In this document: positions 3 to 8,978 of the stretch, in pieces
How the letters are laid out: each line of letters starts with the position of its first letter
How positions within the stretch are numbered: position 1 is the first letter of the stretch
NCBI GenBank assembly: GCA_016785015.1
Contig: JADHTJ010000001.1
Span: 41,028 to 105,027, forward strand
From: Anaerolineales bacterium
GTDB taxonomy: Bacteria > Chloroflexota > Anaerolineae > Anaerolineales > UBA11858
Direction: 5' to 3'
Length of the DNA stretch: 64,000 nucleotides
Translations under genes and position numbers: made by a program
Notes under the pieces: generated by a model
Database searches by the model: none
Told to the model about the DNA's origin: nothing
Seen by the model: only the letters and a program-made list of their open reading frames with translations

Positions 3-1424
3 CATCATACCAACTTTAGCCGTTGGCTAAAAGAAAACCTGCTAAGTTCTGTTTCCAACATCTTGCTTACATTATTAGTCGGTTTGCTGATTGCCTCTGC
101 GTTTATAGGTGCCTTGCAATGGGGTATCTTGAACGCAACTTTTGACCCAGCAGCAACTGCTCCTGAATTACAGCCTGAAGATGGGGCTACCTGGGGGGTC
201 ATCGTGGGTGCTCGAAAACTGCTGGCGACCGGGGTACTCGGACCAGAATACTCGTGGCGTGTTTGGACAGCGCTGTTTTTTATCTTGGGTATGTGGCTGC
301 TTACTTATATAAGCAGCCGCCCAGTGTTGAAAGATAAATTGCGCGTTGTTCGCAATGTCATCAACGGACTATGGTTGCTCTCACCTGTTATCCTGTATAT
401 ATTCCTGGCCGGTGTAGCCAACGCTCCCTATAACTTTACAGGGGCGCTGACCGGCGGGGCTGTTTTGCTAGCCATTTACGCCTTGCTGTGGTGGCAAAAA
501 GTGATCCCCTTCAGATGGACAGGCCTGATCGCTACAGTTGCAACCTGGCCTGTGCTATACACAATTTGGTGGGCAATTGGAAATAGTGAAACTTTCACTC
601 CGATCAATGTAGATGAGTGGGGTGGGCTTCTCCTGACCCTCATAATCGCCAGTTCGGTGATTGTGCTTTCATTGCCTTTAGGCATGGTGCTAGCACTTGC
701 GCGGCAAAGTGATGTTTTCGGTATTCCCGCTTGGATTATCTGGCCTGCAGGCATCGGCGCGACCATATGGGGATTTACTTCCACTCCAGAATTGCTCGCA
801 ACATCTCGTAACCTTGTAGAGCAGTTACTTTCGTTCTGGCCAATTATGATCCTTGCCATAGCCTATCTGATCCATCGAATGTTCAAAGGCAATATGGTAT
901 CTGGTGCCAGTACAATGTTTATCGAGCTGATCCGAAGTGTGCCCCTGATTACACTCTTATTTATGGGAATCAATATGGCGCCCTTCTTCTTTTCAGCTGG
1001 CACAAGCATCGCTAAACCTTGGCCGGTTATCGTAGGCTACACGCTCTTCTCCTCCGCCTACATGGCTGAGACGATCCGCGGCGGCTTACAAGCTATTCCT
1101 AATGGACAATACGAAGCTTCCGATGCGCTGGGTTTCAACACCCTCCAAAAGATGCGCTTTATCATTTTGCCCCAGGCGCTGCGTATCGTCATTCCAGCGA
1201 TCGTCGGCCAGTTCATCGGCGCGTTCAAATCATCTTCATTGGTATCTATCGTCGGTCTCTTCGATTTCTTGGGGATCAACCGGGTGATTAGCTCCAACCC
1301 CCAGTGGCTGGGGCTGCGTGTCGAACTGTACGTGTTTATGGGATTAGTTTACTTCCTGGGCAGCTTCTTAATGTCATCTTATAGCCGAAGACTCGAAGCT
1401 CAATTGGGAGTTGGTGAACGATAG
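3..1424 (+). CDS. Amino-acid ABC transporter permease (AapM/HisM-like), 5' end outside the window
   Basis: Frame is open from base 3 (HHTNFSRWLKENLLSS...). Contains the EAA loop AETIRGGLQAIPNGQYEASDALGFNTLQKMRFIILPQALR; followed by an ABC ATPase. Confidence 0.9.
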   Translation, partial: HHTNFSRWLKENLLSSVSNILLTLLVGLLIASAFIGALQWGILNATFDPAATAPELQPEDGATWGVIVGARKLLATGVLGPEYSWRVWTALFFILGMWLLTYISSRPVLKDKLRVVRNVINGLWLLSPVILYIFLAGVANAPYNFTGALTGGAVLLAIYALLWWQKVIPFRWTGLIATVATWPVLYTIWWAIGNSETFTPINVDEWGGLLLTLIIASSVIVLSLPLGMVLALARQSDVFGIPAWIIWPAGIGATIWGFTSTPELLATSRNLVEQLLSFWPIMILAIAYLIHRMFKGNMVSGASTMFIELIRSVPLITLLFMGINMAPFFFSAGTSIAKPWPVIVGYTLFSSAYMAETIRGGLQAIPNGQYEASDALGFNTLQKMRFIILPQALRIVIPAIVGQFIGAFKSSSLVSIVGLFDFLGINRVISSNPQWLGLRVELYVFMGLVYFLGSFLMSSYSRRLEAQLGVGER

Positions 1425-1499: not shown

Positions 1500-2267
1500 A
1501 TGGAATTCGAAGGCCCAGCACAAAGCTTTGTAGACGAGATTATCATCGTCGAGAATGTCCATAAATGGTTTGGTGAGTTCGAGGCGCTGCGCGGTGTAGA
1601 TCTTAGAGTAAAACCTGGCGAGGTGATCGTGATCATCGGACCCTCGGGATCAGGCAAATCCACTTTTATCCGTTGCCTCAACCGCTTGGAAGAACACCAG
1701 GAAGGCCGTATCATCATCGATGGCACCGAACTTTCCCACGACATTCGTAACATCCAGGAAGTTCGCCGTGAGGTTGGGATGGTGTTTCAGCAATTTAATC
1801 TCTTCCCACACCTGACCGTCTTGGACAATATAGCCTTGGCGCCGATCAACGTGCGTAATTGGACGCGTGATCGCGCCGAAGAGATTGCCATGAAATGGCT
1901 GACGCGGGTCGGCATTCCAGAGCAAGCAAGCAAATTCCCTGGGCAGTTATCAGGCGGTCAACAACAGCGCGTTGCCATCGCGCGCACGCTGGCGATGCAG
2001 CCCAAGATTCTGCTGTTTGATGAGCCTACATCTGCCCTCGATCCAGAAATGATCAGTGAAGTATTGGACGTAATGCGCGACCTGGCTCGTAGTGGATATA
2101 CCATCTTAGCCGTGACACACGAGATGGGGTTTGCCCGCGAAGTAGCCAACCGTATCATCTTTATGGATGCAGGTAAAATCGTCGAGGAAAATAACCCCGA
2201 AGACTTCTATAACAATCCCAAGGAAGATCGCACCAAACTCTTCTTGAGCCAGATCTTGCACCACTAA
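1500..2267 (+). CDS. Polar amino-acid ABC transporter ATP-binding protein (GlnQ/AapP-like)
   Basis: Walker [10 protein letters not shown], signature [16 protein letters not shown], Walker [15 protein letters not shown]. Confidence 0.95.
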
Positions 2268-2653: not shown

Positions 2654-4849
2654 ATGAAAACCTCACCAAGAATTCAGCTCTTCCCCCACACAACTCGAAA
2701 CAAAACAACGCGAAGTGGCAATCAACTAACCATTGCTGGTTGTGACCTCACAGAATTAGCAGATCAGTACGGCACCCCGCTCTATGTCTACGATGCCGCC
2801 ACATTGAATGCAGCGGTGCAATCTTATCAACTAGCCCTGACCCAGTTTTACCCAGGCCATGCAGGCATCACCTACGCGGGCAAAGCCTTTTTGAGCCTGG
2901 CAATCGCCCAATGGACGCAGCGCCACAATCTTTGGGTGGACTGTACTGGTCTCGGCGAACTGCGCATTGCCGCAGCCGCGGCTGTTCCGAAAGAGCGAAC
3001 GCTCATCCATGGAGTCAACAAATCGCCACAAGTTCTCTCCACCGGGATCTCTCAAGCTGGAACGATTGTGGTCGATAATCTCACCGAACTGGAGCGCCTC
3101 AAAACACTCGCGCAGAGCAATCCCACCAACATACCAGATATATGGCTGCGCTTCCGACCAGGAGCAGCTGTAGAAACACACGCTCATATTCAAACCGGGC
3201 AGCACGACAGCAAGTTCGGCATGAGCGGCCAGGAAATTGTACAAGCAGCTCACATATGCCGTGCTAACAAACTGCCCTTCAACGGGCTCCATTTCCATCT
3301 CGGTTCACAGTTCCATATCCCCGACCCCATTGAGCACGCCATTCGACGAACGCTGGATCTTGCAGAAGAACTGCAAATGGGGGCGGATTGGACTCTTTGT
3401 TTGGGGGGTGGATGGGGCGTCCCTTATCATGAGGATGATCTCCCACACGCATCTATCGAAGATTTCGTTCACTTTTCGGCTGGAATTGTAGTGGATGGCT
3501 GCACCCAGAGAGGGATCCCGCTCCCGCGCCTGCAACTGGAGCCGGGGCGCAGTTTGGTAGCCCAGGCCGGGGTCGCCATTTACCGCACAGGAACAATCAA
3601 GCACACCCCCGAAAGGAGATGGATTCTGCTCGATGGCGGCCTGGCAGACAACCCGCGTTTCGCTCTCTACCAGGCACGCTACTCAGCTTTGCCAATTGTC
3701 GAACCCTTGCGCCCAAATGCTGACTCTGCTTGGTTAGCAGGCCCCTTCTGTGAAAGCGGCGACGTGCTCATCGAGGCCCTACCCTTCCCCGAAATCGACC
3801 CTGGTGAACTGATTGCCATTCCAGTAAGTGGGGCATACCAACTCAGCATGGCCAGCAATTACAATGGGGCCACGCGCCCCGCGGTGCTCTGGCTCGAAGA
3901 TGGTCAGGCTACAGTAATTCGAAATCGAGAAAGTCCTGATGATCTAATTCGTCATGACAAACCCCTACCCAATTCCAGCACAAACTTCTCATCGGTATTG
4001 TTCCACAAATTCCATGGCTTGGGAAACGACTATATCGTGGTCAGAGAAGACGATTTGGAAACACCGTTCACCCCAGCCCAGATCCAACAGATTTGCGACC
4101 GCCAGTATGGGTTTGGCTCTGATGGCATCGCCCTTGACTGCTCAAAACCTAAAGATGATTTTTTCACTGTGCGCTTTTTCAACCCCGATGGCAGCGAAGC
4201 TGAAAAGAGCGGCAATGGTCTGCGCATCTTCGCCCGCTATCTTTGGGATGCGGAACGGGTTGGCCTAGAAGCATTCCAAATCATGACACCGGGGGGAGAG
4301 GTCAGAGCACTGGTTCATCAGGGCGGCGAGAGCGTGACAATTGAGATGGGAAAAGCGGACTTCGACAGCCGTCAAATTCCAACTGAGGGCGCACACCGCG
4401 AGTCCATCAATGAGATGATGCTCATAGATGGGCAAGAACTCACTTATTGTGTGGTGAGCATGGGTAACCCACACTGCGTCGTTTTGTGTGATGAAATCTC
4501 AGTCGAAGATGCAAAGAAATGGGGGCCCTTAATCGAAAAAGAAGCGCGTTTTCCTAATCGCACCAACGTGCAGTTTTTGAAGGTAATAGATCGAGATAAT
4601 ATTCAAATCGAGATTTGGGAGCGCGGCGCCGGATACACCCTGGCATCAGGGAGCAGCAGTTGCGCGGCGGCGGCAGTTGCACATCGGCTGGGATTATGCG
4701 ATGGGGATATTACGGTTCATATGCCAGGAGGAGAATTAGAGATTTCCATCGGCGAGAATTTCGATATTAATATGGCGGGTCCAGTTGCCAAAGTTTGGCA
4801 AGGGAATATCTCAGAAGAAGTTTTTGATGATCTAACCACAGATAAATAG
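2654..4849 (+). CDS. Fused diaminopimelate decarboxylase (LysA) - diaminopimelate epimerase-like (DapF) protein
   Basis: N-terminal LysA: YAGKAF (PLP Lys), HFHLGSQ, LEPGRSLV, CESGDVL. C-terminal DapF: FHKFHGLGNDYIVV, YGFGSDGI, FFNPDGSEAEKSGNGLR, MGNPHCV, ERGAGYTLASGSSSCAAAA. ORF opens at 2465 inside the MITE, but ATG 2654 (MKTSPRIQLF) is the likelier start. Confidence 0.9.
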   Translation: MKTSPRIQLFPHTTRNKTTRSGNQLTIAGCDLTELADQYGTPLYVYDAATLNAAVQSYQLALTQFYPGHAGITYAGKAFLSLAIAQWTQRHNLWVDCTGLGELRIAAAAAVPKERTLIHGVNKSPQVLSTGISQAGTIVVDNLTELERLKTLAQSNPTNIPDIWLRFRPGAAVETHAHIQTGQHDSKFGMSGQEIVQAAHICRANKLPFNGLHFHLGSQFHIPDPIEHAIRRTLDLAEELQMGADWTLCLGGGWGVPYHEDDLPHASIEDFVHFSAGIVVDGCTQRGIPLPRLQLEPGRSLVAQAGVAIYRTGTIKHTPERRWILLDGGLADNPRFALYQARYSALPIVEPLRPNADSAWLAGPFCESGDVLIEALPFPEIDPGELIAIPVSGAYQLSMASNYNGATRPAVLWLEDGQATVIRNRESPDDLIRHDKPLPNSSTNFSSVLFHKFHGLGNDYIVVREDDLETPFTPAQIQQICDRQYGFGSDGIALDCSKPKDDFFTVRFFNPDGSEAEKSGNGLRIFARYLWDAERVGLEAFQIMTPGGEVRALVHQGGESVTIEMGKADFDSRQIPTEGAHRESINEMMLIDGQELTYCVVSMGNPHCVVLCDEISVEDAKKWGPLIEKEARFPNRTNVQFLKVIDRDNIQIEIWERGAGYTLASGSSSCAAAAVAHRLGLCDGDITVHMPGGELEISIGENFDINMAGPVAKVWQGNISEEVFDDLTTDK

Positions 4850-5092
4850 GATGAATTAGATAGTGTAATGATCAATCTATGTTCATCCTATTATGACAGC
4901 ACAAGGTTGGTGATTTATATCATTTTTCTAACTTGCTAAGGCTGGTCTCGGCCTAATATTCTCCGATCTTACGTTGGAATACGATTCATCTGTGAGATTT
5001 TTTATGCAACTTTGTTTTCACCCGCTCCACAGTGATCCCCTCGTGGGGATATTCTACAACCCAAAATGGGTCATAGAGCGCCAACCGACGCC

Positions 5093-5125
5093 AGAAGCTA
5101 AACTTCTGCCAGAAGTTTAGCTTCT
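5093..5125. repeat. 33-bp perfect palindrome, copy 1
   Basis: AGAAGCTAAACTTCTGCCAGAAGTTTAGCTTCT (16+1+16). Confidence 0.8.
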
Positions 5126-5154: not shown

Positions 5155-5310
5155 AGGTTGCACGGCTGGGATTTCGATGAAGGAATCACAGTTCGTATGC
5201 AGGGGGTAAACTGGAGATTGCCATCAACGAAGATTTCGAAATCAGCATGAACGGACCGGTCGTCAAAGTGTGGCAAGGGTATCTTTCAGAAGAAGGTTTC
5301 AAAGAATAAT
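5155..5310 (+). pseudogene. Frameshifted 3' remnant of a second dapF-like gene
   Basis: DEGITVRMQG-(+1 frame)-GKLEIAINEDFEISMNGPVVKVWQGYLSEEGFKE* matches the intact gene's CDGDITVHMPGGELEISIGENFDINMAGPVAKVWQGNISEEVFDD. Confidence 0.8.
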
Positions 5311-5416: not shown

Positions 5417-5449
5417 AGAAGCTAAACTTTTGACAAAAGTTTAGCTTCT
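5417..5449. repeat. 33-bp perfect palindrome, copy 2
   Basis: AGAAGCTAAACTTTTGACAAAAGTTTAGCTTCT (16+1+16), with a compensated substitution relative to copy 1. Confidence 0.8.
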
Positions 5450-7562: not shown

Positions 7563-8978
7563 ATGTCCAATCACAAATTTCAAACCATGGGTCAGCAATT
7601 TGGCCGCCGTTCTTGGGCCGAACCGTGGAAGATTAAAATGGTAGAGCCTATCCGCATGGTCACAGCGGAAGAACGCACAAAGGCTTGCAAGGAAGCTGGC
7701 TACAATACTTTCCTAATGCGCTCTGAAGATGTGTATATCGATCTGCTGACAGACAGCGGCACTAGTGCCATGAGCGACCGTCAATGGTCTGGCATGATGA
7801 TGGGCGACGAGGCTTACGCGGGCAGTCGCAACTATTACAACCTGGAAAATGCAATCCAAAAGTATTATGGCTATAAGTATGTGGTGCCCACCCATCAGGG
7901 ACGCGGGGCGGAGCACCTGATTAGTCAGGCCGTGATCAATGAGGGTGATTACATTCCTGGCAATATGTATTTCACCACCACCCGCCTGCACCAGGAGTTG
8001 GCTGGGGGTACCTTTGTGGATGTGATCATCGACGTGGCCCATGACCCCACAGATCAACACCCCTTCAAGGGCAACGTGGATCTCGACAAAATGCAGGCTC
8101 TGGTAGATAAAGTCGGCGCCGACAAAATTCCTTATGTCAGCCTGGCGGGCACGGTTAACATGGCCGGTGGGCAACCGGTCAGCATGGCCAATGTCAAAGC
8201 TTTGAAAGAATTTTGCGACAAACATGGCATCCGCGTTTATCTCGATGCCACACGCATGTATGAGAATGCCTTCTTCATCCAAGAACGCGAGGAAGGCTAC
8301 GCCGATAAATCTATTGCCGAAATCTTGCTGGAGTTCTGCAGTTACACAGACGCAGCCTGGATGAGCGCCAAGAAAGACAATCTGGTTAATATTGGCGGCT
8401 GGCTGGCAGTCAATCAGGCAGAGGTTGCCGAGAAAGCCCGCAATATGGTGGTGGTCTACGAAGGGCTGCACACCTATGGCGGCATGGCCGGACGCGATAT
8501 GGAAGCGCTGGCCATCGGTATTGCAGAGGGCGTGCAGGATGATCATGTCGCCTCGCGCGTCCGTCAAGTTCGATACCTGGGCAAATTACTCTTGGATTGG
8601 ACCATCCCCATCATGGAGCCCATCGGTGGACATGCCATCTTCGTGGATGCTAAGCGATTTTACGATCATATCCCCCAGGATCAATTCCCTGCCCAAACGT
8701 TGGCCGCGCAACTTTATTTGGACTCAGGTGTGCGCTCGATGGAACGCGGCGTCGTCAGCGCGGGACGTGACCCCAAAACAGGGCATCATCGTTTCCCGGC
8801 CCTGGAGTTGACTCGCCTGACAATCCCGAGGCGTGTCTACACCCAGGCACATATGGATGTGGTCGCTGAGAGTCTCAAAGCTGTTTATGACAACCGCAAA
8901 CAAACCAAGGGCTTGAAGATGGTTTACGAACCAGAATATCTGCGCTTTTTCCAGGCGCGCTTTGAAGCCATTGAGTGA
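7563..8978 (+). CDS. tpl: Tyrosine phenol-lyase (beta-tyrosinase)
   Basis: Colinear with TPL/TnaA. Carries the TPL-type residues in MYFTTTRLHQE and SMERGVVSAGRD rather than the tryptophanase-type ones. Confidence 0.85.
   Translation: MSNHKFQTMGQQFGRRSWAEPWKIKMVEPIRMVTAEERTKACKEAGYNTFLMRSEDVYIDLLTDSGTSAMSDRQWSGMMMGDEAYAGSRNYYNLENAIQKYYGYKYVVPTHQGRGAEHLISQAVINEGDYIPGNMYFTTTRLHQELAGGTFVDVIIDVAHDPTDQHPFKGNVDLDKMQALVDKVGADKIPYVSLAGTVNMAGGQPVSMANVKALKEFCDKHGIRVYLDATRMYENAFFIQEREEGYADKSIAEILLEFCSYTDAAWMSAKKDNLVNIGGWLAVNQAEVAEKARNMVVVYEGLHTYGGMAGRDMEALAIGIAEGVQDDHVASRVRQVRYLGKLLLDWTIPIMEPIGGHAIFVDAKRFYDHIPQDQFPAQTLAAQLYLDSGVRSMERGVVSAGRDPKTGHHRFPALELTRLTIPRRVYTQAHMDVVAESLKAVYDNRKQTKGLKMVYEPEYLRFFQARFEAIE

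Follow-up and report, generated by a model that had tools for sequence, protein, structure and literature searches.

Among racemases that need no cofactor, diaminopimelate (DAP) epimerase, DapF, serves as the model. Its pair of catalytic cysteines is regarded as essential, and their thiols are the point of attack for antibacterials directed at the enzyme. The DapF proteins of Escherichia coli, Haemophilus influenzae and Arabidopsis thaliana, which belong to the family defined by TIGR00652 and PF01678, carry this cysteine pair (C73 and C217 in E. coli) along with Cys79 of an RC motif. Two H. influenzae variants, C73S and C217S, are reportedly engineered single mutants that were made to block or slow catalysis. 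Elsewhere in the fold, single Cys-to-Ser mutants of PddB keep <0.1 % of activity, and the same study reports this for Mt-DapF of Mycobacterium tuberculosis and argues from pKa that serine is a poor base for the alpha carbon (PMC8225329). The activity of HisR is greatly reduced by Cys-to-Ser mutation, and the catalytic cysteines of the DapF fold sit at helix N-termini (PMC11602996). Natural replacement of a catalytic cysteine is documented within the same fold in the proline racemase superfamily (trans-3-hydroxyproline dehydratase and others), where the Cys-Thr type is a dehydratase and the Ser-Cys type lacks racemase activity (PMC4364671, PMC1964878). These proteins act on other substrates and are 13–18 % identical to the DapF considered here, and cysteine replacement among them goes with lost racemase activity; no Ser/Ser lysine-pathway member is described in the literature found.

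The present analysis concerns a natural DapF domain with serine at both catalytic positions, encoded within a window of 64,000 nt (the whole stretch of DNA that was analysed). The domain resembles the known enzymes in fold, length, tested DAP-binding residues and gene neighbours (dapC, dapD, dapL and lysA), but where they have the cysteine pair and Cys79 it has a serine pair, Ile79 and clade-specific active-site substitutions. It likewise differs from the H. influenzae mutants, which have one serine each, by engineering, whereas here both positions are serine by nature. Judged by sequence, the natural Ser/Ser DapF appears to be what is new, the DapF family itself (its sequence, fold, binding residues and context) being already known. 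The first-pass annotation of this DNA would have been refuted had Ser/Ser DapF proteins already been known as ordinary DAP epimerases; no description of a natural one was found in the open-licence literature.

The LysA–DapF fusion

The fusion ORF occupies positions 2654–4849 of the window on the forward strand, from an ATG at 2654 to a stop codon at 4847–4849, and encodes 731 aa, with a LysA (diaminopimelate decarboxylase) domain followed by a DapF domain; a mechanical ORF finder placed the start further upstream, at a GTG at 2465. The LysA domain (2654–3997, forward strand) exceeds the equivalog cut-off of the NCBIfam lysA model TIGR01048 (346.5 bits against 297.9, residues 22–435), and alignment to solved LysA structures indicates that the motifs YAGKAF (with the PLP lysine), HLGSQ (HxGS), EPGRS and CESGD are kept. 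The 283 aa DapF-fold domain (3998–4846, forward strand) gives an equivalog match to TIGR00652 in a search with the whole protein (243.7 bits against 114.65, residues 449–720). Pfam yields the same two-domain reading, and the fusion proposed earlier is borne out, both NCBIfam models being exceeded in one ORF. Like the Chlamydia bifunctional DapF/glutamate racemase, the window protein is a DapF relative of unusual character, but it scores only 58 bits against the cut-off of 350 for that family's model (NF038284), and it has no Pfam or NCBIfam match to the proline racemase models.

Apart from the Cys-to-Ser positions, alignment of the domain with solved DAP epimerases is straightforward. The first serine (AGC, 4208–4210, forward strand; EAEK-S-GNGLRI) aligns with E. 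coli C73 and the second (TCA, 4646–4648, forward strand; GYTLA-S-GSSSC) with C217, in agreement with the first-pass annotation, which had read serine at both catalytic cysteines. Two nearby residues on the same strand are diagnostic for the clade of 88 proteins described below, namely a lysine just before the first serine (AAG, 4205–4207; equivalent to E. coli Q72, a position where Cys/Cys enzymes mostly have Met; 81 of 88) and a serine at E. coli G220, three residues past the second (AGC, 4655–4657; 87 of 88, one gapped).

A clade of Ser/Ser DapF proteins

By reading of the motif columns, 88 distinct Ser/Ser DapFs were assembled. The window's phylum, most likely Chloroflexota, contributes 35 of them and Verrucomicrobiota 49, and the other four come from metagenome-assembled genomes (MAGs) labelled Desulfobacteraceae, Planctomycetota, Deltaproteobacteria and SAR324. 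The first close relatives came from those four MAGs and a Puniceicoccaceae MAG, followed by others from the window's phylum and then from Verrucomicrobiota, to which the Puniceicoccaceae MAG belongs. Four or five phyla, at the least, are represented in the clade. When the catalytic columns are left out of the tree, all Ser/Ser sequences lie on one side of a single branch (SH-aLRT 99); the tree and the counts exclude one sequence, L075, which has a frame break before the motif and was at first read as Ala/Ser. The window DapF domain is at most 40 % identical to Cys/Cys DapF and 34–61 % identical to other Ser/Ser members, and is assigned on its sequence to a distinct Ser/Ser DapF clade. Under the curated NCBIfam model TIGR00652 they are annotated as ordinary DapF proteins, with the cysteine change unflagged.

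An alignment of Ser/Ser homologues, which the first-pass annotation had proposed as a check, thus comprises 88 distinct sequences in which both serines are invariant. The first serine is encoded by AGY codons in 69 members and TCN codons in 19, and the second by TCN in 86 and AGY in two. Both codon families are used at each position, so serine has persisted while its codons switched from one family to the other. Sequencing error or chance, considered as an origin of the serines, was ruled out on the same grounds and by their presence in all 88 members.

Wider sampling also recovered natural single-Ser DapFs, and the provisional statement that no Cys/Ser intermediates exist was overturned (L176 and L177, Cys/Ser; L168, Ser/Cys). 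The combination Cys73/Ser217 occurs in G280 (L176/L189) and G202 (L177/L190), and Ser73/Cys217 in G248 (L168/L191); each of the three dapF genes is followed by an LL-DAP aminotransferase gene (dapL). Since the tree nests these proteins inside its Cys/Cys part, they are separate events and not steps towards the Ser/Ser clade. Replacement of one cysteine appears from these sequences to have arisen in at least two lineages other than that clade.

Constraint and structure of the active site

Full invariance across the clade is limited to 35 alignment columns, which include both catalytic serines, present in 88 of 88 members. By the catalytic pair C73/C217 alone, neither the window protein nor any of the 88 would count as DapF. 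Residues N11, N64, N157, N190, E208 and R209, which we take to be the DAP-contacting residues of DapF structures (H. influenzae/Arabidopsis), are likewise kept in 88 of 88, and on this score the proteins belong with DapF. The clade-diagnostic residues are, in E. coli numbering, Tyr13, Lys72 (81 of 88), Ile79, Gln192, Ile206 (87 of 88) and Ser220, the last position being Gly in all 56 Cys/Cys sequences. Selection within the clade is strongly purifying, with a median pairwise dN/dS of 0.18.

The AlphaFold2 model of the DapF domain (pLDDT 86, pTM 0.84) has DAP epimerases as its best solved-structure matches in Foldseek (TM 0.84–0.89), including the H. influenzae C73S and C217S mutants (PDB 2q9h and 2q9j). 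Helices 72–84 and 218–230 of the model begin right after the two serines, so that these are predicted to sit at helix N-termini. Model and matches together give the two-domain DapF fold with the catalytic residues so placed.

Copy number and gene neighbourhoods

Whether the Ser/Ser protein is the sole DapF was assessed in 55 genomes, 40 from Verrucomicrobiota and 15 from one family in the window's phylum, with pathway genes identified by family search. In 52 of the 55, no other protein matched PF01678 strongly. In 50 genomes PF01678 matched the Ser/Ser protein alone, as two half-matches, and in two more (G418 and G462, counted within the 52) there was one other match each, below the cut-off. 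The remaining three (G519, G584 and G474) encode a second DapF over the cut-off with a weaker score, which is Cys/Cys where it was read (G519 and G474). LysA-family matches were present in all 55 genomes, 36 of them over the strict cut-off. The bypass enzyme meso-DAP dehydrogenase (Ddh) exceeded its cut-off in only 3 of the 40 Verrucomicrobiota, being absent from the other 37, and a further 41 genomes gave no match above that cut-off. In three nearly single-contig Verrucomicrobiota genomes (G447, G450 and G500), the Ser/Ser gene stands alone and there is no Ddh; if meso-DAP is made there, no enzyme of a known type other than the Ser/Ser protein is available to convert LL-DAP to meso-DAP. A second, Cys-containing dapF in the window genome, a possibility raised in the first-pass annotation, was not found, that genome (81 % complete) having no second PF01678 gene.

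The gene neighbourhoods of relatives also tie the Ser/Ser protein to DAP and lysine synthesis. In G286, dapC (TIGR03537, 475 bits against 453.6) and dapD (NF008808, 330 bits against 204) come after the Ser/Ser dapF, and clusters homologous to this one occur in G201 and G217. In G247 it adjoins dapL (NF006756, over cut-off), a homologue of which is near dapF in G154, and lysA is a neighbour in four genomes of one family. The dapF–lysA fusion itself was seen in the window and in G012, most clade members being unfused. By these contexts, too, the protein sits with DapF. In four Verrucomicrobiota genomes leuA (2-isopropylmalate synthase) lies directly before the Ser/Ser dapF (L007:4286-5983, L081, L083 and L086). 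A conserved histidine-gene neighbourhood (hisG and hut genes near L063, L007 and L073) was considered and dropped as inconsistent across loci.

Proposed function

The reading preferred here, to which we give a probability of about two in three, is that the Ser/Ser DapF is a genuine LL-/meso-DAP epimerase with a thiol-free, remodelled active site in which serines replace the thiols. Such an enzyme is surprising, as engineered single Cys-to-Ser mutants in the fold lose nearly all activity, and a DapF that is Ser/Ser and present in single copy runs counter to the two-thiol mechanism of known DapF. If single mutants are nearly dead, the native clade must have compensated, and the diagnostic residues round the site are candidates for that compensation. 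The two serines would take the place of the thiol/thiolate pair in proton transfer, within a site remodelled mostly by Lys72 beside Ser73, along with Tyr13, Ile79, Gln192, Ile206 and Ser220, whose roles are putative. The narrower account, in which the two serines are activated by the rebuilt site (Lys72, Tyr13 and Ser220) and perform a 1,1-proton transfer, one cysteine having been replaced separately in at least two other lineages, is evenly balanced. In the fused window protein, LL-DAP would be converted to meso-DAP and this then decarboxylated to lysine; one polypeptide could carry out both steps because the epimerase is fused to LysA.

The first-pass annotation had left three options, a Ser-based epimerase, an epimerase of altered substrate or a non-racemising binding domain. 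The first is now favoured over the other two, because the Ser/Ser protein is mostly the sole DapF and lies in DAP-biosynthesis clusters. Confidence is held down mainly by the proline racemase superfamily, in which natural cysteine loss accompanies changed or unknown function. That precedent, with its Cys-Thr branch that became a dehydratase (PMC4364671, PMC1964878), also speaks for altered chemistry, in which the domain would bind DAP or a close analogue without epimerising it, or would act on another diamino acid. The poor quality of serine as an alpha-carbon base (PMC8225329) points the same way, as do the absence of DapB and use of LysX in several members of the window's order. Two MAGs, G355 and G356, moreover encode both a Cys/Cys and a Ser/Ser DapF. 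Against altered chemistry stand the six checked DAP-contacting residues, the invariance of which (88 of 88) specifically weakens the altered-substrate option, the status of the Ser/Ser protein as sole DapF in DAP-making genomes, and the dapC–dapD or dapL clusters and lysA fusions. We consider altered chemistry unlikely.

Less probable still is a catalytically dead scaffold that binds LL- or meso-DAP and feeds or regulates LysA, with another racemase (for example, a PLP-dependent one) making meso-DAP. Fusion and adjacency to LysA, and the retention of substrate-binding residues where the thiols are lost, would suit such a scaffold, but fusion to LysA is confined to a minority of members and invariant serine at both catalytic positions (88 of 88, in both codon families) is unexpected for a dead site. 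Additionally, no alternative epimerase is known in the Ser/Ser genomes, in a search that was not exhaustive. An origin as a pseudogene or through faulty sequencing or assembly, for which only a decayed second copy downstream of the fusion might speak, has a negligible chance given the intact 731-codon ORF, the 88 homologues with the same two serines and the strong purifying selection, which likewise uphold the earlier judgement that the DapF domain is not decaying.

If the epimerase reading is true, the thiol-free clade would represent another solution to deprotonating the alpha carbon of an amino acid. The textbook need for a thiol pair is now directly testable, because a Ser/Ser relative is usually the sole copy in dozens of bacteria, and the natural Cys/Cys, Cys/Ser, Ser/Cys and Ser/Ser sequences form a ready-made set for testing the DapF mechanism.

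As a separate observation on G356, its Cys/Cys dapF lies between lysA and dapB and is split across two frames (L053, G356:C314:3849-4585), with an intact Ser/Ser dapF elsewhere in the MAG; the split gene may be a replacement in progress or an assembly error.

The window locus and its surroundings

DapB is absent from the window genome and from nine tested order-mates, so that this order has no complete DAP pathway for the enzyme to work in, and LysX, of an alternative lysine pathway, is present in most of the nine. Directly before the fusion, on the same strand, is an amino-acid ABC transporter set of a binding protein, two permeases and an ATPase. The ATPase (GlnQ/HisP-like; 1500–2267, forward strand) is encoded by the gene next upstream of lysA–dapF and is preceded by a permease (63–1424, forward strand; NCBIfam polar-amino-acid permease matches), while the solute-binding protein (PF00497, L150:2519-3556) and the second permease (PF00528, L150:3612-5276) lie just outside the window. 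Given the missing DapB and the adjoining transporter, it can be suggested, tentatively and at somewhat less than even odds, that the fusion and transporter salvage imported LL- or meso-DAP to lysine.

What is left of another Ser-type DapF copy, a decayed piece of its C-terminal end 37 codons long, lies at 5196–5306 (forward strand), 350 nt downstream of the fusion (translated search, E 3.8e-8, 59 % identity). Its DNA is 74 % identical to positions 4725–4824, at a spacing of 475 nt, and the frame is broken upstream of it; the remnant points to an earlier duplication or replacement here. It is flanked by two copies of a palindromic 33-nt repeat (AGAAGCTAAACTTCTGCCAGAAGTTTAGCTTCT) at 5093–5125 and 5417–5449, which are 91 % identical, and there is a partial copy at 5075.

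Further from the fusion, a saccharopine dehydrogenase-family gene lies approximately 6 kb upstream on the reverse strand (L150:973-2169). A tyrosine phenol-lyase gene is found at 7563–8978 of the window (TIGR02618, 765 bits, over cut-off), with a gene for an Lrp-like regulator before it.
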